From assembly GCF_000219625.1 (NCBI RefSeq), contig NC_018210.1, positions 186,001 through 250,000 on the forward strand: DNA of 64,000 nucleotides. The letters run 5' to 3'. The notes beneath the pieces were generated by a model. That model was not told where the DNA came from and did no database searches. It was given only the letters and a program-made list of their open reading frames with translations. The translations under genes and the position numbers were made by a program. Positions 46,211 to 61,150 of this stretch are shown one piece after another. Origin of the DNA: Zymoseptoria tritici IPO323 (lineage: Eukaryota > Ascomycota > Dothideomycetes > Mycosphaerellales > Mycosphaerellaceae). The stretch's first letter is position 1, and each line of letters begins with the position of its first letter.

Positions 46211-46826
46211 GGGTAAGTAGTCGCCTAGCAACGGAAGACTAAAGTCGAAAGTATTTAGTAAGGGTAGAGTTACGTAGTAAAGATAGCTTAATCGAAGAGT
46301 GTCGTGTTATAGTAGAGGCGAAAGAGACGTAGTCGGCAACTATAGTCGGCGCTAGTAGATAATAAGAAGTAAGGCTCGTCTAAATGCGGCTATTCTAGAT
46401 ACGTAATTATAACGTTATATATCGGTCCCGTATATATAGAGATCCTCGTAGCCGTAACTAAGTAACTAAGGGCGTAGTTAGTAAATATAGTTAGCGCGGC
46501 TCCGAATAAGAAGTTACTCCGCCTAGAATACCGCCTCTATTATTATAAGGCTAGAATTATATACCTAACCCGTAGTATTATCTATTTAGCGTACTAGAGA
46601 TTATAGTAATACTAGACTATAATAGGTTTAAGAGGTTTATAAGCGTCTTAGTATATTAAAGCCCCTTACTCTCGTAATAGAGTAGTCTATTAAAAGTAAT
46701 AACTATATATTAAGATAGATCCTACTATACCGATTAAAGTAGATTACCCTAATATTAGTAGAAGCTATTATATCCTACGACCTTCTATAATTGCCCGCTA
46801 ATACTATATAGCCTAAAGGATACTAC
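46211..46826. other. RIP-depleted unknown repeat relic
   Basis: AT-rich with very few CpA/TpG and many TAG. No domain can be read. It is interrupted by the solo LTR. Confidence 0.5.
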
Positions 46827-47101
46827 TGTCAGAGGCTGGTGCCTGAGGCTGCATCGGCTGTGCCGATGCCTGGGCCAACGCCCAACGGACGAACGCCGGT
46901 TCAGAAATCCACTAGGCCGAATCGGGAACAAGCTTCCTTTCGGCCGACTGGAAGGCCACGTATACGCCAAGCGACGCTACGCGCACACACAGCTTATACT
47001 CGACGTTCCGTTGTTCTAGATAGATCTTCTTTTCGGTAGCTTTAGAATTTCATACATTCGGATCTGGCCCTTTGTGAGCAACTTCGGTTCAGACCCTTAC
47101 A
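46827..47101. mobile_element. Solo LTR, 275 bp, with ACTAC target duplication
   Basis: It starts TGTCAGAGGC, ends ACCCTTACA, and is flanked by ACTAC on both sides (46822-46826 and 47102-47106). It keeps normal CpA/TpG content inside a fully RIP-depleted host sequence. It therefore inserted, and lost its body by LTR recombination, after the surrounding DNA had been mutated. It does not match the other LTRs in this window by eye. Confidence 0.75.
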
Positions 47102-48519
47102 ACTACGTTACTATAGTAGAGTCTACTAGGCGATAATAATAGTAGTAATACTTCTACTAGACTCGCTTAGCTAAGTAAAGAGAGTAAGGATCTCCTATAC
47201 CTCTATTAGGTAGTACTAAGAGCCGTATTAGAGACATATAAGACTATATAAAAGAGATAAACGAGCGACTTAACTAGCTCGAGAGCGACTTCCGTAATTA
47301 ATATATAAGTAAATATATATAATAATAGAGGTAATATACTAAAGAATACGGACTTAGTAATAGATATATAGAATAGGTCTATAGCGAGGATATTAATAGT
47401 ATACCGGCTAGTAATAAAGATAGAGTAATAATCTCGACTATAGCTAGATTAGAGGGTAATATAGCTATATTATAAGTAATAGTAGATAATATAAAGTACG
47501 AGCTTTACGAGTTATTATAGGCGTTCTCGAAAGTCCTTACGAGGCTTAGGAAGTACTACTATTAGTATAATAAGGACGTAGTATAGTAGTTGTACTTATA
47601 GCTAAATATAGGATATAATATTACTCTTAGTTTAACGCTAGCTAGAGCGCTTATATTAGTAGGTAAAAAAACAACTTATTAGGGGTCCGCGTCCTAGTAG
47701 AGGATCCTATACTATATATTACTACTAACTATACTTTTAGGGCGCCGTAGTTAGTAGTTAAAAAAAATAGACTTAGGATCTCTTTAAGTAGGCTCCCTCC
47801 TACCCTATATATTAGAGTCTAACTCGCCCCCTTCTTTAAATAATAAATATACTATAAGCTTACTATAAGAATTAGAAAGGATTATTAGAGTACTAGCTTA
47901 TATAGCTAGATATAATTATAAAAGCTATAGCTACGTTATATATATTGCTCTATACTATACCTACTAACTATACTTTTAGGGCGCTATAGTCGGTAGTTAA
48001 AAAAAGAAGTTAACTTACGTAGTCCCTTTAGGCCCCCCCCTCTACTATATACGCTTCTATAGTAGAGGATCCTACCCTATATATTAGAGTCTAACTCGCC
48101 GCCTTCTTCGAATAATAAATACGCTATAAGCTTACTATAAGAATTAGAACGGATTATTAGACTACTTACTTATATAGCCGGATATATTTATAAAGACTTA
48201 CGTTACGTTATATATATCTCTACTTATTGCGACTACTAACTACGCTTATACGGTAGCGTAGTCGGTACCTATCTTAATAAAACAATATATATAATATATA
48301 TTATCGTCTATATCGCGTCTAGAATAAGAAATAGGCGAGAAATATAATATTTAATATTATCTATATTTTTAAAATAGCGTTTTAGATAGGTAAAGATATC
48401 TAGGTTATAGTAGGTTATTATAGGGAACTTAGATAAACCCTATCTACGTAAAAGTATAGGTTCCCTCCCTACGTTTTATATATAGGTAGGGTAAAGCTTT
48501 TAACCCTACCCTACCTATA
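47102..48519. other. RIP-depleted relic with 240-270-bp tandem repeat
   Basis: AT-rich and TAG-rich, with no readable domain. From about 47697 to 48260 a unit containing CTAACTATACTTTTAGGGCGC and CCTACCCTATATATTAGAG recurs, with starts at 47723, 47962 and 48234. This is a degenerate tandem duplication that might derive from LTRs. Confidence 0.5.
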
Positions 48520-48520
48520 T

Positions 48521-48560
48521 TGTTTGTTTGTTTGTTTGTTTGTTTGTTTGTTTGTTTGTT
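48521..48560 (+). repeat. TTTG microsatellite at the TIR tip
   Basis: Ten TTTG units on the left against about four CAAA units on the right terminus of the inverted-repeat element. Confidence 0.85.
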
Positions 48561-49106
48561 CCATTTACGTCCTTTTGGAGTCTAAGACTATGTAGGACGG
48601 CTTTGCCCTAAAGGCAAAGCAGTAGATCTAGTTACAATTAGATTCTTTGGTATTCTTTGACCTTAGGGGAAACCCCGTGCCTAAGGCAGGACCTGCAAGC
48701 AGAATCTGCTAAAGGACTTTAAAACAGCGCAAGACAAAGGAAATCAAACAAGTGTTGCAGCCTAGGGCTGCAGAATTTTCGCGCTAAGCTTTTTGCAGAA
48801 TTTTCAGCGGATCCTTCCGCTTCGCACGCACGCTGCAAATTTAAATGCAAAAGCAGTGCAAAAGCAGCAGCAGCTGTCCAACTCGCTGTCTTCTCTTGTC
48901 CTTAATATGCCTTTGTAGAACTGTATGCCGCTTCCAAACGCATATAGCTACGCAGGTTAATCGTAGAGTTGTAGATTCCACCGAGTTCCAGCTCTTTGAA
49001 GTGCATGTATGCTTCCTTTCGAGGGTAACGACGTCTCTACTAGAGAAGGGATATGCGATTTCGATTTGGATTTCGAGGAGGTGCGCGTATAGGACAGAGT
49101 GGACTG

Positions 49107-49133
49107 CCTCTTCTTCTTCTTCTTCTTCTTCTT
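49107..49133 (+). repeat. TTC microsatellite
   Basis: About eight TTC units inside the TIR element. Confidence 0.8.
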
Positions 49134-49736
49134 GTTCGTAGCGTAGAGAGCTATTCGTTCGAATCGTGCTATTGTTCTGTAGCTTGTGTTTTCGAGGGGA
49201 GGCGTGCCTCCAGGTCGTGTTGTTGTTGTAAGGGAAGAGGGATCGACGGCCTCTCCAATCCTCCGGAGGAAACTTGGCTCTGCGATAGTATCGCAGGTTC
49301 GTAGCCGGCACCGCGTACAGGTGTTCCTCGTCGCCGGCCTACCCTACCTATAACCTACCTAGGTTTTCCCTATCTAGTATACTATCTATATAAGATATAG
49401 AAGTCTCTAGTATATAGAGCGGCATTTATAGAGCTCTACGACCCTAAGGATAAGGGAGGTAAACTAGATTACGTATATAGGATACCTACTATTAAGCTAT
49501 AGAGAAAGGGAGTATAGAATAGTATCCTATAAGAGTAACGATTCTACTTACTACCGGCGGTATACTATAGTATATATATAATACCTATTAAGGAGCGCGT
49601 ACTAGAAGAAGAAAGGTATATTAATAATATAGCGGATTTTAAGTTATATAACTTCCTCTAGGATATAATATAGAAGGCGGATATAGTAGTAGACGCGTAA
49701 TATTTAAAGGAGAAGAAGATTAAAGAGGGGAGGCTA

Positions 49737-49806
49737 ATCCTAGGATAGTAGCAAGCTAGTATTGTCTTTCTTTAAAGTCCTTCGATACTAGCTTCCTACT
49801 ATCCTA
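49737..49806. repeat. Hairpin, about 24-bp stem
   Basis: CCTAGGATAGTAG...AGCTAGTAT is followed, after a 22-nt loop, by its inverted copy ending CTACTATCCTAGG. It sits at the inner edge of the right inverted repeat. Confidence 0.75.
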
Positions 49807-49989
49807 GGCACGGGTCTTTCCCTAAGGTCAAGAGATACGAGAGAACAACGATTGTACATAGATAGACTGCTGTCGCGAGACAGCCGTCCTACATAGTCAT
49901 AGACTCCTATAGGACGTAAATGGAACAAACAAACAAACAAAACAATAGACGCTCTAGAACATTATATACTATATAAAATAGGATAGTAC

Positions 49990-52900
49990 GCTATAGAACA
50001 AGATATAGCCTAAATTGCTTAAAGCGGTAGTATTTATAAATAATAGATTACTAACCTCCTTATTAAAAAATATAAAAACTCTATATAAGGCTTTAACTAG
50101 AGATATACCTAATATTAATTAGATTTGTCGAGTTAGATATTACGTATATAAACTTAAACCGAAGAAGAAGTTTCTAAAGAAAGATAATAAATATACGTAT
50201 CTACGTATCTTAGTTAGTTTTAAAGGGATAAACCTCCCTTAGTTATAGGATCTAATTATTAGGAAAATTAAAAGGGCGCGTAAAGTATTATTTAATAAAG
50301 ATGTTCGACTTAATACCGCTACTCTAGAAATGCCTATTTAACTACCGCTACTATTAGCGAACCTAGATACTAAAGACTACTCTAAAGATATTCTACTAAA
50401 TACTACTAAGAACTACCTATCTAGTTTTAACGAGTAAGAGGCTATACGGCTTAAGGGGGAGAAATATAGACGCCTACTAAATAATATCTTATCTAATCCT
50501 ATATAGCCTATTATAATAATACTATAATAGGAGCTACTACTTTAACTAGACAATCGATAACGTATACTAAACGCTAACTCTAGACTAACGCTAATCTAGG
50601 TACTATTAAATATAAGACTTCCTTTAATACGAGAATAGGCTCTAATAGTAAATTTTATATATACCGGTATACGCGTATTAAATTCGGTATCGATCTTTTA
50701 TATAGTAAAGCGAAATAATATAGATCTAGTACTTAAGATTAAGATTAAGGATATTAGTAACTCTATTATAATAGAGTACTAACTAAGTAAAAAAGAAGAT
50801 AACTCTCTTATAATACTTATATAGCTATCTAAAAGTAACCGTATTATACTAAGGACTATCTATTAGGTATAGTCTTTCCTATATAGTAAGTATTAGGATA
50901 TAGCGGTAAATAAAGAAATAAAATTACTAAAGGATAATAATATATAGGAGATCGTTAATAAAGATATAGTAACTTTACTAATCCTTTTAGGTAAATAGAT
51001 GTTTACTTTAAAGCGTAGTATTAATAGTACGATTAAGAGATTTAAGGCGTAATAGGTCGTACGCGGCTTCGAATAACGCGAGCAAATTAACTTCTTAGAA
51101 ACGTTTACTACTATTATAAAACTAATAAGCTATAGGATTATGTTTACGCTAGTAGTAAGAAATAGATAGTACGTCTATTAGATAGACGTTAAGACCGCGT
51201 TCCTCTATAGTAAGGTTTATATAGAGATCTACGTTAAGCTACTACCCGGTTTTAAGATTAAGGGTAAGTTATATAAGTTAAAGAAGGTGCTCTATAGATA
51301 TAAAAAAGTACTAAGGATTTAGTACTAAATATTAATAACTACCCTACGCGATTTAGGCTATAAGCCCTACCTATATAACTATATAGTCTTTAAAAAGGGA
51401 TTAACATTAATCCTCGTATATATTAATAGCCTACTAATTATAGGCCCTAATCTCGAATAGATTAATTAATTAAAGGTAGACCTTTAGAAGCGCTTCTAGA
51501 TAAAGGATATAGGAGAGTATAAATTCTTCCTTAGAATTAGAATCGAGTACTTAAAGGGTAAGATTCGACTAACTTAAATAGCTCTATTTAAGGCTATAAT
51601 AGAGAAGTTTAGACTTATAGACGCTAACCCTACTATAATACTATATATTTTAAAGGGTTAGTAGGAGCCTACGCCTAAAGGAGAGACTACGACGGACACT
51701 TATTAACTCGAATATTAATTAATAGTAGGGCCCTTAATATATAGAATACTAGGAACTCGGCTAGACCTTACGTTTAGTATCTTAATAGCTAGCCGATACT
51801 ATTTAAACCTATTAAAGAAACATCTCGAGTAAGTAAAGCGAATCCTTTAATATATCCTCGGTATACTAGAATACGACTTAGAATACGGAGGAGGTAACGA
51901 TATCTTTAGATTTAGCGACGTAGAATACGCCGGCGATAGATCTAATAGTAAGTCTATTAGTAGCTACGTATTTACTATTAGTAGTACTATAGTTAGTTAG
52001 AGGTATAAGAAACAGACGATTATTATACTATTAATAGTAGAAGCTAAATATACTACGCCTTACTATATAGTAAAAGAAGTAGTATAGCTAAGAAATATAC
52101 TAGATTTCCTCGGATACCTATAAGAGATAATAAAGTTAAAGGTAGATAACTAAAGTGCTATTCGTATCGCGAACAACCCTAAGATATATAAAAGAACTAA
52201 ATATATTCGCGCTTAATTTTATTATATACGCTAACTAGTTAATAAGAAGCTTATCTAAATTAATTACGTTCCTAGATACTTTAATATATCGGATATCTTT
52301 ACTAAGGTACTAGATAAGAGGACCTTCGAATTCTATACTTAGGGACTTAGTATTACTAGACTAGACCTAAATAGAATATTAAAGGCTAAGAGCGGTAAAG
52401 GAGTACGAGCCCTATTTATATGGTTAAGTATTAGTATAGAGAGATATTAATTCCTCGCTTAAAAATCTCTTTAAATAACCTAGTAATTATCTTTAAAAGT
52501 ACCTAAATACGTAAAAACTTAACCTTACTAACTTATACTTAATATAACTACTATAGAAACTAATATAATATAGAGACCCTATAATATAGGAACCTAAGAC
52601 TATAGCTATAATACGTAGAACTTTACTATATACTAAATTAGGAATACTATAACGAGATAATATAATATAATATAGAAAGAGACTCTAATTAAAGTATAGA
52701 AAGAGACTCCTTTAATTAGAGTATACTATAGTATATTATTAAACTTCTAATTAGCGACGTTCGTTTTCTTTAACCTATTATACTTACTAGAATACCGATA
52801 CTATAACTAGACTACTTAAACTACTAGACCTAGATAAATAGAATTACTAATATTATATAATAACTTAGACCTTACTTTCGACGAGTTCTTACTAATCTAG

Positions 52901-53435
52901 AAGAATTTCTTAGAGACCTAATCCCTATAGAGCTCTTTACTACTAGCTACGAGAATAACTAATACTACTAGTAGATTACCTCTTAGGTTTAGATTAATAA
53001 ATTCCTAGTTAATATTATATAAGATATAGTAGATAAAAGATACCTTTAATTTATTACTAAGTATATAATTATAGCCGAACTTATACTTAAGTAAGTAAGT
53101 AAAGGGGTATAATAATAGGTAGCTATCTAAGGTATGTCGGAAGGACTTAAGATATAAGATAGAAGCTTAGCTAATAACTAAGCGTTTAGGGCTAGCTCTA
53201 CGGATTAGTCCCTTTCTAACTTAGTATAGTAATAGGTTACTTTAAGGGAGGATTATAGGTAAGAGGGATAAGGCGTATAATTTAGAGGATTCTAAGATTA
53301 TAAGAATTAGTAGCTATACTCCTTTTCCCTTAAAGTTAACTAAGGTTTTTAATAAGGTAGTAGGATAAGGATATTAGGAGTTACGGCATTAGAGTTTTTA
53401 ATTATAACTTAAACCGACTATCGGTTAAGGGGGAG
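49990..53435 (+). pseudogene. 5'-truncated, RIP-saturated Copia pol
   Basis: Translating through TAG stops gives the integrase tail (ALTRDIPNI, VYKLKPKKKF). The Copia reverse transcriptase follows (IDVKTAFLYSKVY near 51180; VYINSLLI near 51417 where YVDDLLI is expected), then RNase H (ILQYILGILEYDLEYGG, KYIRAQFYYIRQLV, DIFTKVLDKRTFEF, about 51830-52340). About 1 kb of further frame of unknown kind follows before a purine tract at 53426. Gag, protease and the integrase core are missing; the inverted-repeat element lies at the break. The CpA loss is heavier than in the Copia at 11237. Confidence 0.75.
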
Positions 53436-54182
53436 TGTTAAAATGTAGGTCTATTTAGTTATAGTAACTAATATCGGTACCTTAAAACCTTAGCTAGAAG
53501 GTAGATAGTTTCTTCTTTAATCTAATAGCTTATAATCTTTAATAGATAGGCGCCTAAATCGAAACTAACGGCCTAGTCTCTAAATGTCTCGGGGGAGTAT
53601 AGTCGGAAAGAATACTTAAATTACAAGCAAACTTTAACTTTATAGCGCGAACTTCGACTTCCTACGCCTTTATAATAGAGCCTACGGCGCTTAAAATAGT
53701 TTTACTAACCTTTTAAATATACCTATACCTTACGCGCTTAGGTATCGTACGCCCGTCGCTATCCTCGTAAGCTCGGGCTCCTTAGTACTTACTTCCCTCG
53801 TTACGTCCGCTTATTACCTCGCGAAGTCCGTAACTTCGGCTCGCTTAGTTCTATCCGGAATTCGCTCTTATTAGTAATTAAGGCGGGGCATTCTACTAAC
53901 AAAAGATATCCGAGTATTCTTTCTAAGGATTTAGTTCGGCCGACCATTAGTTATCGCTAAGCCGACTAGTTAAGTGCTAAGCCTACTACTTAAAAGTTCG
54001 GTATACTACTTAAATTCTTTCTCTCTTTAATACCCTATACTAACATATAAGTAACGACTATCTATTACTATTCTATACTATTCTAGTACTATTATTACTT
54101 CCTATTTATCGTATATATACTATAAAAGTAATATCTAAGTATATCGGTATTGTTTTATATGTACGTATATACTAAAAGTAAA
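53436..54182 (+). repeat. Probable 3' LTR of the truncated Copia and AT-rich flank
   Basis: TGTTAAAATGTAGG directly follows AAGGGGGAG, as a Copia 3' LTR would. No 5' partner or right border was found. The rest is RIP-depleted with no readable gene. Confidence 0.4.
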
Positions 54183-55089
54183 GTAAGGCTAGATATATTT
54201 AGGAACATATTTACTAATACGTTAAGATTAGAGCCTATAGCCCCCCCCCTCCTATCCTAAACCGTATATAAACATAACTAAACACGATACCGAACACGAT
54301 ACCTAACACGATCGCTAATTTATCTAGAAAGTAGCTAGAGAATTATATAAGAGAAGGGATATTTTAAATAAGAAAACAAACATGTTAGCTAACATGTTTA
54401 GGCCGTATACGAGTAATATAAGAAGTACTACTCTAATAGTATACCGATTCTAGGCTTCGAGGAGATACTAATTATAAGAGATATATTATATTTAGTAATA
54501 TATTAAATAATATATTAATATACTATAGGAGAAGAATAGGAAGTCTATCTTAAGCTAGAACATTTAGGTAGGCGAGATTATATATCGTCTTAAGGTAAGA
54601 AATAATATGTTAGGTAATACGTTATAGAACGCGTTCTCTAATACGTTCGTAGAAGGGTGCCTAGCCGCTAGATAGAGAGTCGGACCTCGAGCTCTCTAAG
54701 TCTAAGTCGGAAGAGAAGACTATACTCTAGTACCGCGTATATTAATACTAAACCTATTAGGTAATGTATTAGCTAATATGTTATAGAAGGTATATAAGAC
54801 TACTAGGGCTCTTCGTAACTACTATAAGACCTATATAAGTTAGCACTTCTAACATGTCCTATAATATATTTACTAATATGTTCTAGTATAAGTTCGAAGT
54901 TATTAACTAGGCGGGTTCTAGTACTAGACGTTAGGCGGCAAATGTAGTAGATAAATCTAAGGGTAATATATTCTTTATTATATTTAGGAACACGTTAACT
55001 AATACGTTTACTATAGCCTTCTATAAGGGTATAATTAAGGCGTATATAAAGTTAAGGCGTAACGAGGACTAAGGAAAGTAGAGTGCCCG

Positions 55090-55142
55090 GTATAATATAT
55101 TCTCTAACACGTTCGCTATTATGTTCCCTAATATGTTTATAG
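55090..55142 (+). repeat. Example modular intron (plus strand)
   Basis: 53 nt. After GTATAAT the intron is a string of 12-bp units, AACACGTTCGCT, ATTATGTTCCCT, then AATATGTTTATAG. Two units contain a CTAA(T/C) branch-like motif. Representative of the family. Confidence 0.7.
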
Positions 55143-55221
55143 CACCCCTAAGAAGTAGGTAAAGAAGTCTAAGACCTTAGTAGATAAGAGTAATAAGTCT
55201 AAGGACTCTTAGTCTAGCGAG

Positions 55222-55270
55222 GTAATATATTTACGAATATCTTCCGTAACGTATTCGCTAATATGTTTAG
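55222..55270 (+). repeat. Example modular intron (plus strand)
   Basis: 49 nt. GTAATATATTTACG, AATATCTTCCGT, AACGTATTCGCT and AATATGTTTAG: four successive 12-bp-phase units that supply both splice sites and the branch motif. Confidence 0.7.
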
Positions 55271-55832
55271 GATTCTAGTATAGATAAGGCTCTAACTAGT
55301 AGTAAGAAGCGCTAGGGTAGTAGTATAGCCCTTCCTAAGACTAAGACCCCTACTAAGGCTAAGCTTACTAGAGTAAGTTTTAAATATATTAATAAAGACG
55401 TTCCTAAACGTGTTCGCTAATATATTTAGCCGTTCGCTACTCCGGCCCCCGCTCCTCCTACCGCCCCGGATCTACGCCTAGAAGTTCTAATAATTACTCG
55501 TAGTCCTAATAAGAATACGGTAAGTATATTCCGTAATATGTCTAGTAATACGTTCGCTAATATGTTTAGATTAACTTCCTAGAGATAAAGAAGATAGTAA
55601 AGAGCTAGGGTTATAATATACTATATACTAGCTATAAGGAATACGGTTAGAGGAGTAAGACATTACTAATATATTAAGGAATATATTTACTAACATATTT
55701 TAGCCTACTTTAACGATCTAGTTAGCGAGACCTACCTAAGCTAGACCTTCTTTAAGGACGATAGCCTTTACGAGTAATATGTTTATAGACATGTTACGTA
55801 ACACGTTCGCTAATACGTTTACTATACCCTAG

Positions 55833-57303
55833 AACATGTTCTTTTTCTTCCTACCGTATAATAGTATTACCTCCGCTATTATATTAGAGAATATGTTCGA
55901 CTTCTCCCTTAAGTTTTAGGGCGAGAAAACTCCGTTTAATAGTTTTAGAAAAAACTAAATACTAATACTAATGTTTAACTATATAATATATTTAACAATA
56001 TGTTCGTTAACGTAATCTATAATATATTTTATCTATAAATCTAGGCCTAATCCTTACCTAAAAAAAGGCCCGAAAAAAGAGAACTAGACTAAGGAGTCTA
56101 ACGGTCGGGGAAACGTATTCGGCAATATACCCTTAAATATATTAAGTAATATATTAATTACTTATATCCGGCGTATATACCTCTAAAGGTCTCCTAAGTA
56201 GATTATACGCCTTACTATATATATTTCGAGCGCCTAGACTAAGTAAGAGTATATATCTTATATATAGGGCCTAATTATATATAGTTATTAAATATATCTA
56301 GTTATTATACTCGAAAGTAAGCTTTATAACTTTTACTACTCTTAATAGTCCCCTCTATATTAATACCTAGTATATATTTAACTACGGCTTAATAGGGTAA
56401 GATATAATATAAAAGAGTATCTATTTATCCTATAGAGGCTCTATAAATTAAAAGACCTTATAGCGTAGGCATTCGGTATAGCTACTAGACCTAATATATT
56501 ACCTAATATGTTCGTTAGGGTTAGCCGGCCCTATACTAGACTCCTTCGTCCGGTTAGAATAAAAGGGGGTAGGCGTAGGGTAACGAATATATCGAGGAAC
56601 ACGTTCGTAAATATATTTAGTAATATATTACGGTATACCCTCTCGTTCCTTACGCTTATTCTTAATTTCCTTCGCCCGGGTATTAGCCTATACCTCCCGA
56701 ACCCTTACCTAAAATATTTAAACCTCGTATATAGCCCTCTACCTTTCCTAGTAATTAGGATCCTAGCTCTCGGCCTTACGCGAAGGTACGGCCCTAAAAA
56801 GTATATTAATATATTACGTAATATATTCGCGAACGTATTTACGTACGTATTAGTAGCCGTTATAAACGAGGTAGACGATTCCGCTAAAGGGGAGTCGTCC
56901 CGCATTAAAGACGGCGGTTATATTACTCCTCCGCTAGTATCCTATAGAATATTCTCCGATATAGCCCTTTATAGTAGGCTTAGCCGTATATAACTAGATA
57001 GAGGCGCTACTAAACGCGATACTAAACGCGATACCGAACGTAATAACGAACGCGTTCGAGGGGAAGACCCCCTCCTTACGCGCTTTAGTATACTCCCGCT
57101 CCGTATAGCCCCTTCGGATAGAGTACTCCTACGCCGGCCGGACTTAGTCTCCTCGCCTAGAAAGTAGGTAGCCTCCCGTTCGCGTTTAGTATTATATTTA
57201 GGGGCATTATCGAAGTCTAGGGAGCTCCTCTAGTTAGGATCGTCGTTATACCGCTCGTTAATTACCTACTAGATCGCTATAATCTTTTTATTTCGCCTAT
57301 TCC
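55833..57303. other. Middle of the intron-dense element
   Basis: It carries the same 12-bp modules at about 70-150-nt spacing, but the coding strand is not clear. A plus frame at 56508-56993 stays open only because modules read through as a 4-residue repeat (NTFVNIFSNILR). A variant unit (AAACGCGATACT) recurs at 57012. Confidence 0.4.
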
Positions 57304-58405
57304 CTAATAGGCGTTAGCGAATATATTAGGTAATATATTACTTAATATATTAATAAACGTCTTCTACGACGTAATTCTTACCCTTATAGTCTAATACTTA
57401 CGCGCCCTTATATTAATATCGGTATACCGCGACGCTATAGATAGATTCCGGAATAAATAGAGAGTACGCTACTTCTTCCGGGTAAAGTACTAGTTATAGT
57501 CCCTTAAGTCGAGAATCCGGAATCTAGATACGTTAGTAAATATATTCGTAAACATCTTCGTAAATATATTAAGTAGAACCTTACTTCTTAATCGCTAGCT
57601 TTATTTTCTACCGTCGCCCTATTACGTTACTCTTATATCCGGTCTACTCGTTAGAATTCGTATATTTACGAACGCGATCGTATAGATCTTTATCTATCTT
57701 CGTATAGTTTCGGTTAATCGTAGCCGTAATAATAGGGTTACTCTTATTCCGGGCCTAGTTCTAGACGCGCTCGTCTTACTCGAAGTCTAATAATAGATTA
57801 GCGAAAGTATTAATAAATATATTATTAAATATATTAAGTAATATATCTCGAAATATACTCTTTAGGATATTTACTAGCGCCTAGTACTCCTCCTTCGACT
57901 AAATATCGGTAAGAGCTAGTATCTAGTACTAGATACCGTCCTCGGGCTAATACTTTCCTATTCGTTCTTCGATCTTCCGTTTAAAGTATACGCGATAGAG
58001 TACGAGGGTATAGAGGAGGTGCTCGTACTAAGGGCGATTCTAGGAATTAATAGAGGCTAGGTAGTTCCTAAACCCTATTTAATAGATTAGTAAATATGTT
58101 CGTTAACGTATCCGTAAACGCGTTCGGTAACGTATTAAAGGATCCGTTCCCCTTACTATAATACTAAGTCCCGCTCTAGTCTATAATAACTACGTAGAAG
58201 GCCTTCGTATCCGGCCCGGATATATACTTCTATATAATAGGCCAGTTTGTTACCTCCTAAATATATTTAAAAAGACGTCGAAAGGTAACTTCGTAGGTCG
58301 TCGTATTCTTAGTTCTAATAATAACCCGAGCTATTATTATAACTACGAAGTTAGTACGAATACGCCGGAAAATACGTTCGTAAATATATCTATAAATATA
58401 TTAGG

Positions 58406-58483
58406 TTTCCCCTTTAAGCGAAGCTAGACGCCTAGGTATCTAAGATCGGACTAGGGCGTCTAGCTCCGCTAAAAAAGGGGAAA
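58406..58483. repeat. Long hairpin in the intron-dense element
   Basis: TTTCCCCTTT...AGCTAGACGCC and its inverted copy ending AAAGGGGAAA form a stem of about 28 bp around a 25-nt loop, flanked by palindromic modules. Confidence 0.7.
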
Positions 58484-58759
58484 TATATTATATAATATAT
58501 TCTAGAACATATTTATTAATGCCTTAAACTTACTTTTGCCTATCTCCTTCTTAAAAATAGTAAAGAGGATCTCGTTTAGATTCTCGCCCTATAGCCTTTT
58601 AAAAGATATATCGTATTCGAACGATTCTTATTCCTAGAAGATAAAGGCCTATACTCGGTAAAAAAGGAGTACTATAGGGCCGAGATAGTCGTTAAAGACG
58701 CCTTAGATATATTACTTATCGTATTAGCTAATATAGCGGGAGATATAATAAGTAACATG

Positions 58760-58791
58760 TTCGTTAATACGTTCTAGAACGTATTAACGAA
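58760..58791. repeat. Perfect 32-bp palindrome
   Basis: TTCGTTAATACGTTCT followed by its exact reverse complement, made of two modules meeting head to head at CTAG. Confidence 0.85.
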
Positions 58792-59930
58792 TACGTTCGG
58801 GTAGATAGGTCTTACTATCTTAGGATCCCTCTTCTCCCGCTCGTAGTCTAGGAGTATAGTACGGAAATTACGGCCGTCCGGGTAGTATAGGGCCTTCTAT
58901 TTATCGATTAAAGCTATAATCTTAGCCGTATTATTTAACGAGTTATAAACCTAGCTAAGGGAGGGCTTCCCCTTTAACTCCTAGTAGTCCTTTACTTATC
59001 AGCTAACGAGGAACCGAGCTATTACTAGTTAGTAGCGGCCTAATATGTTCGATAACGTATTACGTAATACGTTTATAAACATCTTATATAATATCTTTAA
59101 AGGGCCTTTCGAGATAGCTTACCCGTTATTAGCTCCGAATTATATATTCGCTCGATAATTTCCTCTAGCTCTTTTTAAACTTCTATCGGTATCTTATTTA
59201 GTAGCGGCGGAACATAATTATAAACGCCTTAAGAGATAAGAATAGTATATAGCGTTTAGATAAGATTCTTCGGAATCTAAACGACGAACCTTATAGGATA
59301 TAGATATATAATAAGCTCGCCCTCGCCCTATATATAGACCTTACCTAGAAAAGTATTAGAGGATATATTAAGTAATATACTTATAAATATATTTAGGAAC
59401 GTATTTACTTACTATATAGGCGCCGCCTTAATATAATAGTCTCGATAATCTCGTAGGCCTCTATTAGGGGGGTATAGGAATCCTTAAACTGTAGCTCTAA
59501 ATAGTTAATATCGGTTTCCCCGTAAGGATTAAACGACCGAATATAATACTACCGGGCGTAGGGTATATAGTATCGGTATTAAATATAAACCTTAGGTTGC
59601 CCTAAAATAGTCTACTTAATACGTTAGCGAACACGTTCCGTAATACGTTTAGGAATATATTACCCTTACCGTTCGTATATTACGTACGAATACCGGCTAG
59701 TAGCTTAGTTATTACGAGATACCCGCCTTCTTATTACTATACGCGCTCCGCCTCTCGAAGGACCTCTTAATCGAGTAATAGTACCTATTAAATTATTAGT
59801 CGAGGTAAAATATAAGCTCGAACATGTTCGTAAAGCTAGAATATGTTCGCGAACACGTTCGGCTATATTAGACTCCTTAGTCCGGTTCCTTATATTAGGC
59901 CTATCCCCTTTAGCGTTAGGCGTTAGCGAA

Positions 59931-60188
59931 CCTAAACATGTTCGCGAACATATTTAGGCGTTACGGAAATTATCGAGAATACGATTTTAATAATCTTCTT
60001 AAAGTATAATATGTTCGTAAACGTGTTTAGTAATATATTAAGTAATATATTACTAAACACGTTTACGAACATGTTAGGCAACATAATGTCGAACACGTTA
60101 ATAAATATGTTATACTTTAAGAAGATTATTAAAATTATATTCTCGATAATTTCCGTAACGCCTAAATATGTTCGCGAACATGTTTAGG
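59931..60188. repeat. Near-perfect 258-bp palindrome with nested palindromes
   Basis: Arms of about 84-90 bp (59931-60014 and 60098-60188) differ at only a few sites, all RIP-type. Each arm starts with a 28-bp palindrome (CCTAAACATGTTCG plus its reverse complement). The spacer holds another 58-bp inverted repeat around GTAATATATTAAGTAATATA. Confidence 0.85.
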
Positions 60189-60612
60189 CGTTACGGAGGC
60201 CTAGATCGTATTTTCGATTATATTAAGGTTCGAGTATATCCGAACCGGTAGTTTAACGTATTCCCGAACACGTTAACGAATATATTAAAAAACATATTAT
60301 AGATATAACTTACCTATTCGCGTCGATCTTCCGCTTATCTCTCTCGAATAAGGATATTAGTAGCCGCTCGGTATCCTAATTCTCCTAGTAATTAATAGGA
60401 ACCTCGGTATAGCTCTATATTAGATACTACGGCTTAATATATTCGTAAGCCCGTATTCCGCTATAAGTACTAATAATACGTATATACGGAGCGTTATTAA
60501 GGAATCGATACCGAGAGTCCTTAGGTAGATAGTCTCTTATTATATAATACTCGGTCTATAAGGGAATATATTAGCGAATATCGTAAGTAAAAGAAAGAGA
60601 AATATATTACTT

Positions 60613-60658
60613 AACGTATTACTAAACGTATTCGGGAATACGTTTAGTAATACGTTAA
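60613..60658. repeat. Inverted repeat inside a minus-strand intron
   Basis: TAACGTATTACTAAACGTATT, a 4-nt centre, then the exact inverted copy. It lies within the longer modular intron at 60670-60556. Confidence 0.8.
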
Positions 60659-60789
60659 AGCGCTACTTACCGAATGCCCCGATTTCTCTAGCTTCGCCTT
60701 AAGGTTAGGCGTTATTTAAGCGTCGATAATATACGCGTAGCCGGCCGTATACGTCTTAGGATATTCTAGTATTATAGATACTACCTCGA

Positions 60790-61150
60790 TGTCTACTACT
60801 ATTATTACATCGACATCCGCACTTCCATTGCACACCCAATATTGACCCGATCATCACCAAACACGCACTATTCGAAAGCCCTTATCAAGGCCGTTCCAAC
60901 GAACCCGCATTCACCCCGCTGCCCTCAAAACCTACGCCGCTACTAGAGTTTAAAGATTCACCTTGTTGCCCCCTTTAGGGTGCAAATTTTGAAAGTTGGA
61001 CCCTGAACTCCGGGATTTGGCCCCCACCTCCGAAACCTTATTCCGACCTTACCTCCCCTATACTCGAAATATTCCCTGTTTAGGGCATTGTACAAGGAAG
61101 GTTTACAACCTGTACTACAACACTTTAACACACCATAATACAACTAATAC
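60790..61150. other. Non-depleted island between two elements
   Basis: About 360 bp with normal CpA/TpG content, no gene recognised. It separates the intron-dense element from the LINE and is either host DNA or a younger insertion. Confidence 0.45.

Follow-up and report, generated by a model that had tools for sequence, protein, structure and literature searches.

What could lead a fungal transposon to fill the introns of both its genes with one short palindromic unit, repeated at a fixed pitch? The question arises from a stretch of 64,000 nucleotides of Zymoseptoria tritici IPO323 (contig NC_018210.1, positions 186,001-250,000; hereafter the window, on contig C9 in our numbering), in which a copy of a transposon family here called F1 occupies positions 53925-60808. 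A first-pass annotation had described the genes at 54183-60690 as saturated with modular introns made of a 12-bp unit, and had suggested that introns there grow or spread by gain of units. The present analysis bears out the existence of unit-packed GT..AG segments inside genes on both strands of a mobile element, the unit being modular and palindromic as described, and leads to another account of their origin. Our reading, to which we give about even chances, is that old introns here hold arrays of palindromic, probably protein-binding, sites that are private to each transposon family. The earlier interpretation as a whole is partly supported.

Sequence, pitch and distribution of the repeat unit

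The F1 unit has the core AAC-RY-GTT and a pitch of 12 bp. Sites of the form AAYRYRTT number 106 at window positions 54183-60690 and 114 in the whole window, with a single one in the 7.7 kb at 46500-54182, which is also mutated by repeat-induced point mutation (RIP); within 54183-60690, 119 of the 133 site pairs no more than 80 bp apart are spaced by a multiple of 12 bp. Among autocorrelation lags 12 ranks first (z 14.4), and other stretches of the window reach a lag-12 z of up to 10.5, yet lag 6 is equal or higher there. On the complete F1 copy of about 7.06 kb on contig C12, a cyclic-repeat hidden Markov model (HMM) gained 646 at period 12 versus 361 at period 11 and 399 at period 13. A lag-12 signal at window positions 48000-54000 (z 5.2) was discarded, as the HMM gave it no backing (151 at period 12, 121 at 11).

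Strict sites in F1 total 101, or 122 in arrays of at least three units when one mismatch is allowed, and these 122 carry 75 different 4-base spacers. Entropy per position amounts to 0.2-1.2 bits in the core and 1.8-1.95 bits in the spacer, a contrast inflated by the selection of units by their core; the HMM profile, whose columns were not so chosen, gives the same contrast, with core columns peaking at 0.60-0.96 and spacer columns at 0.37-0.39.

By BLAST the genome (39,686,251 bases in 21 contigs) holds at least five F1 copies, on contigs C9 (the window), C8, C1, C10 and C12, all copy counts from such searches being lower bounds. A genome-wide search with a 20-bp unit dimer, allowing up to three mismatches, returned 41 places, of which 39 lie within the five F1 copies by their coordinates and two elsewhere; the reversed dimer, used as a control, also returned two.

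Unit arrays form introns of two convergent genes

F1 carries two convergent genes, a transposase gene on the minus strand and a second gene on the plus strand. The model of an automatic gene finder was poor, and exon chains were instead assembled manually, guided by splice signals and reading frame. This gave 10 plus-strand introns of 48-59 nt and 9 minus-strand introns of 58-191 nt, so that the twelve plus-strand and six minus-strand segments counted at first stand as to their presence on both strands and not as to their number. Exons of 50-100 nt, as given for them, describe the second gene (52-102 nt), not the transposase gene (114-247 nt).

The listed part of the second gene (54595-55832, plus strand) has short exons, encodes a lysine-rich product whose part read has a CxxC motif towards its end, and contains unit-array introns at 54595-54652, 54737-54786, 54839-54886, 54963-55016, 55090-55142, 55222-55270, 55373-55429, 55520-55569, 55655-55703 and 55774-55832. 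With these ten segments removed, the frame has 12 stops, against 36 and 25 in the other two.

For the main listed part of the transposase gene (57057-59783, minus strand), removal of nine segments leaves ten exons and 632 codons, and further N-terminal exons were read from the sequence at about 60314-60808 on the same strand. Stop counts alone (38, versus 44 and 42 in the other frames) do not mark the frame of this chain, since it is damaged by RIP and its exons were hand-picked. The chain is credible because of a related family, F2: a less damaged F2 copy, with its exon chain built in the same way, has 18 stops versus 45 and 23, and the F1 and F2 transposases align with a score of 410, against a maximum of 60 in 200 shuffles, with 143 of 419 residues identical (34%).

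All 19 listed introns of the window copy read GT..AG, the one at 58715-58815 ending in AAG, so that its acceptor is uncertain. The splice ends are the same in the other F1 copies save for two, namely the donor of 55520-55569 (GT in the C9 and C12 copies, AT in C8, C1 and C10) and the AG of 58075-58156, lost in C8. At window positions 60660-60670 (minus strand), the donor of an N-terminal transposase intron is GC in the C12 copy and GT in the window copy, a difference of RIP type, and RIP can therefore alter the appearance of splice sites. A CTAAY motif, which the first-pass annotation had placed within the unit as a branch site, starts no more than 30 nt from the 3' end in all 19 listed F1 introns (on the C12 copy), in six of eight F2 transposase introns and in all five introns listed for the F2 second gene; in the F1 introns it is the last unit that holds it.

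Units make up 0.694 of the intron bases and 0.030 of the exon bases in the F1 transposase gene, 0.890 and 0.046 in that of F2, and 0.852 and 0.006 in the F1 second gene, where the enrichment is partly circular because most plus-strand introns came from a scan requiring at least three units. Equal frequency of the unit outside the putative introns, which had been named as a result that would count against the intron reading, was looked for and not seen; outside the 19 listed introns there lie 20 of the 40 unit segments delimited by the HMM. Judged by reading frame and by the positions shared with F2, the segments are spliceosomal introns.

Most comparable intron positions are older than their contents

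When the genome was searched in translation for the F1 transposase, 25 matches emerged, 20 in the five F1 copies and five weaker ones. Four of the weaker matches belong to family F2: L055 on contig C2, L056 on C10, L058 on C7 and one on C1. F2 occurs at six places in all, and its sequence was read in parts at the first three of these four. The fifth weaker match, L057 on C5, represents a third family, F3, with no close copy found in the genome. Near the F2 transposase, longer tandem repeats lie 3' of the gene at L055:4300-4980, where L056 is without stretches of 14, 48 and 107 bp. An insertion within the F2 copy on C7 (L058:1201-2114) is about 79% similar to window positions 48530-49343.

Eight F1 transposase introns fall in the span shared with F2, and seven of them interrupt the same residue in the same phase, five by alignment and two as matched by eye. 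Those at 57787-57858, 58075-58156, 58343-58533 and 59345-59412 agree in residue and phase, and that at 58715-58815 does so at its donor; the two matched by eye are at 59025-59122 (in an alignment gap) and 59612-59669 (just beyond the local alignment). In the choice of acceptors for 58715-58815, for its F2 counterpart and for the F2 intron that corresponds to 58075-58156, the other family was partly taken into account. The position of 57524-57584 is absent from F2, and 57304-57401, which is only partly a unit array, lies outside the aligned span. At three of these intron places F3 shows breaks in the alignment. The intron at 58343-58533 contains an insert resembling a miniature inverted-repeat transposable element (58409-58480, read from the sequence), also present in the C12 copy.

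The contents of these introns are family-specific. The F2 unit is RTAAYRTTAY plus two bases, with a period of 12 (HMM gain 273, versus 68 and 126 at the neighbouring periods), and it also makes up five introns of 50-51 nt in a second F2 gene, convergent on the opposite strand. The F3 unit is about AAGCGCGCTT with a pitch of 11 bp (gain 273 at period 11, versus 159, 144 and 134 at periods 10, 12 and 13); a RIP-marked control stretch gained 121 at period 11 and 151 at period 12. Scored on the given gene strand, the F1 and F2 profiles gain +241 to +646 on their own family and -9 to -18 on other families. The idea of a coding repeat, 12 bp being four codons, was dropped, as 11 of the 32 introns listed have a length divisible by three, the chance expectation, and the F3 pitch is 11 bp.

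Because positions and phases are common to F1 and F2 and the units differ, most of the positions predate the F1/F2 split and the contents do not. On the aligned sequences, then, most of the comparable intron positions are older than the split of these families.

This bears directly on the proposal that every intron is a recent insertion built of units, in the manner of introner-like elements. Introner-like elements of Dothideomycetes resemble the F1 introns in that one repeated sequence forms the body of many introns in a genome, and the part of PMC4457414 consulted, which concerns tritici, is cited in favour. They are near-identical whole introns newly put into unrelated genes, whereas those of F1 are old positions with turned-over content, and the confinement of all but two of the unit-dimer places to F1 copies also speaks against such spread. 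For seven of the eight comparable transposase introns an introner-like origin is ruled out by the presence of the positions in F2, and for the set as a whole we consider it extremely improbable. A large introner screen discarded, on manual inspection, families rich in short repeated motifs, as stated in the part of PMC9860276 consulted, so that introns like those of F1 could be missed or misread in such work.

Changes within the arrays

If the arrays were neutral minisatellites, produced by slippage within introns and spread by gene conversion or template switching without selection, neighbouring units should be alike. Intronic minisatellites share with the F1 arrays a short period and head-to-tail order. 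One array does behave in this way: at 54281-54325 (plus strand) the exceptional array AACACGATACCN, with near-identical spacers, has three such units in the C9, C8 and C1 copies and four in C12 and C10. It is the only one of 30 arrays to vary in unit number across the alignable parts of the five F1 copies, a comparison in which C9 and C10 are unread over the last stretch and the inverted right end of C1 aligns badly. A large inverted duplication with unit arrays at its centre (59931-60188; arms of 128 nt, 84% complementary), present in the C9 and C1 copies and not in C8, C10 or C12, could be due to template switching at palindromic units.

In 28 of the 30 F1 arrays taken together, neighbouring spacers mismatch at 0.689, against 0.715 when shuffled (P 0.215), so that neighbours are not alike over their whole length. 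The remaining two, separated by eye because they looked slippage-like, give 0.350 (P 0.010); one of them is the array that changes in number. With these two included, all 30 arrays show some likeness of spacers (P 0.036). Adjacent F1 cores resemble each other slightly beyond chance (P 0.0025), and neighbouring F2 units, at chance over all differences (P 0.788), are alike in transversions (P 0.008); these are traces of duplication. Between F2 copies, the listed introns of L056 and L058 show no gaps longer than a single base relative to L055; a gap of 3 bp occurs at L055:3419, in another unit segment.

Since neighbouring spacers in the 28 arrays are at chance likeness while cores persist, simple slippage is unlikely, and retention of core and pitch with spacers free to vary argues for selection on the core, even though traces of duplication remain. 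We judge neutral minisatellites to be an unlikely explanation of the arrays, which differ from intronic minisatellites in having a conserved core, unrelated spacers and a change of number in one case. The earlier suggestion that introns grow or spread by gain of units, for which a test of unit-number variation between alleles had been proposed, mostly fails on the comparison of copies, the unrelated spacers and the shared intron positions.

Splicing signals, RNA folding and a reader of DNA

Profiles of the unit are palindromic in all three families, with correlations of 0.87-0.99 and permutation P values of at most 0.0055 in eight runs, which cover three families and are not eight independent tests. 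A simple function for such a unit would be in splicing itself: each copy may be a latent splice kit, with GT+AAC as donor, CT+AAC as branch site and TT+TAG as acceptor, kept for robust splicing of short introns on either strand. Terminal units do supply such signals, as the placement of CTAAY shows, and nine of 17 F2 arrays start with GTAA, five of those with GTAAG. The inner units, on the other hand, retain their core amid diverse spacers, and a signal read in RNA needs no palindrome, yet the profiles are palindromic. We hold splicing modules to be a rather unlikely account of the arrays as a whole.

Another possibility is that adjacent self-complementary cores pair in the pre-mRNA over a 4-nt loop and draw the splice sites together. 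An 8-bp core with a 4-nt spacer has minimal hairpin geometry, and introns fold somewhat better than shuffled sequences (mean z -1.73, -1.93 and -0.91, versus 0.06 and -0.30 for exons). Single introns range in z from -8.0 to 0.6, many being close to zero, and adjacent cores show no covariation as reverse complements (0.277, against a chance value of 0.277). RNA hairpins thus appear a very unlikely explanation. Since the arrays occur in genes on both strands, in F1 as in F2, a reader acting at the level of DNA is favoured.

Affinities and copies of the transposon

F1 most resembles a Mutator-like element (MULE). Target duplications of 9 bp, read by eye, flank all three copies of which both ends were read (C12, C8 and C1) and fall within the MULE range of 8-11 bp, and the terminal inverted repeats, read from the ends, are imperfect and about 45 bp long, as expected of a MULE. 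The window copy is cut short on the right, and its left repeat (53925-53972, plus strand; about 47 bp, imperfect, ends compared by eye) is without its right partner. The F1 transposase contains D, D and E residues and a CxxH motif (CRVHF) in an order that we take to be plausible for a MULE, without a Pfam or database match.

Among ascomycete Mutator-like elements, Mutyl is given 9-10-bp target duplications and a second, antisense gene in a table of the review PMC6446971, as far as that source was consulted, and shares with F1 9-bp target duplications, inverted ends and a transposase accompanied by an antisense second gene. F1 differs from Mutyl in its lack of a profile match and in having genes dense with introns that the motif fills; the main text of the review never uses the word "intron".

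The ratio (CA+TG)/(AC+GT), an indicator of RIP, takes the value 0.92 over bases 1-46500 of the window, 0.12 over the stretch of the element and 0.23 on its left side. By copy it is 0.49 in C12, the least marked, and, over stretches of the others, 0.31 in C1, 0.13 in C9, 0.13 in C10 and 0.10 in C8. Two rearrangements were seen in the C1 copy: a segment of about 320 bp (C1:930053-930372) is inverted relative to C12 and C8, and an insertion of about 13.9 kb (C1:910150-924051) is flanked by 168-bp direct repeats that are 97% identical.

Arrays as possible binding sites for an element protein

The explanation that we prefer is that each family fills its introns with a palindromic core of its own, keeping core and pitch while the spacer letters drift. 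The cores would be bound by a protein specific to the family. The simplest source of such a DNA-binding protein would be the element, and the product of the second gene is a candidate. Introns would offer coding-free room for 100-120 sites, and the last unit of an intron may also serve as its branch site. The second proteins are basic, with 37 lysine and arginine versus 16 aspartate and glutamate residues among 180 in F1 and 28 versus 18 among 135 in F2, and both have a CxxC motif late in the part read. By analogy with VANC proteins on VANDAL elements, the array may recruit its protein across the entire element, for example for anti-silencing or for control of expression.

VANDAL elements belong to the Mutator superfamily in Arabidopsis. 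In the parts of PMC5735166 consulted, VANC21 is located on YAGTATTAY arrays of VANDAL21, which lie in introns and in non-coding DNA between genes and at the ends, and VANC6 has other motifs. Taken with PMC10398659, likewise consulted in part, that source describes elements with more than one gene whose introns and remaining non-coding DNA carry short motifs in dense arrays, each family having its own and related families differing. F1 and F2 agree in having family-private motif arrays in non-coding parts, as seen from the dimer search, the unit content and the cross-scoring. Among the differences are that F1-F3 reside in a fungus and have a palindromic core, a fixed pitch of 11-12 bp, introns that are mostly filled and unrelated spacers, and that in F1 unit numbers are nearly constant among copies, the outer ends lack arrays and the reader is only a candidate. 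VANDAL arrays evolve by gain and loss of tandem repeats, which is not what the F1 arrays show, with one in 30 changing in number and spacers unrelated. F1 may thus work like VANDAL/VANC and is not counted as a member of that group.

Several observations weigh against the binding-site reading, apart from the traces of likeness between neighbouring units. Neither Pfam nor the protein database gave a match for the F1 or F2 transposase, and five PDB matches to a piece of the F1 transposase (best E 0.058) were judged to be due to chance. A Pfam search of the second proteins at E 5 (180 residues of F1, 135 of F2, partial and RIP-marked) found nothing, and hence neither of the VANC domains DUF1985 and DUF287; the F1 second protein had no match to F2 or F3 at E 0.001, and its likeness to that of F2 is weak (shuffle P 0.03-0.05, on pieces picked by eye). 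Half-sites inside one core do not covary, the F3 unit comes from a single, heavily RIP-marked copy, and the outer 250 bp or so at each F1 end contain no units, where VANC targets also occur. All five F1 copies, moreover, bear the mark of RIP.

It is possible, though on balance doubtful, that these families form a fungal transposon clade with self-recognition of its own, in which introns, at positions already fixed when the families diverged, rack at least 100 palindromic operators at a rigid pitch of 11-12 bp for a co-evolving anti-silencing protein of the element, under selection on the DNA code. Sequence-specific self-recognition of the VANC kind is, to our knowledge, known only from plants, and titles and abstract openings among the papers listed, a scope that left out most subscription papers, gave no account of such arrays.

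In these transposons the position of an intron and the sequence that fills it have separate ages, and the filling is not random, nor is it simply a repeat that was duplicated. Were the self-recognition reading true, selection on a DNA code would replace the content of introns wholesale and leave their positions unchanged. If the arrays are binding sites, VANC-type self-recognition would extend to fungi, in which silencing and RIP make for different conditions.

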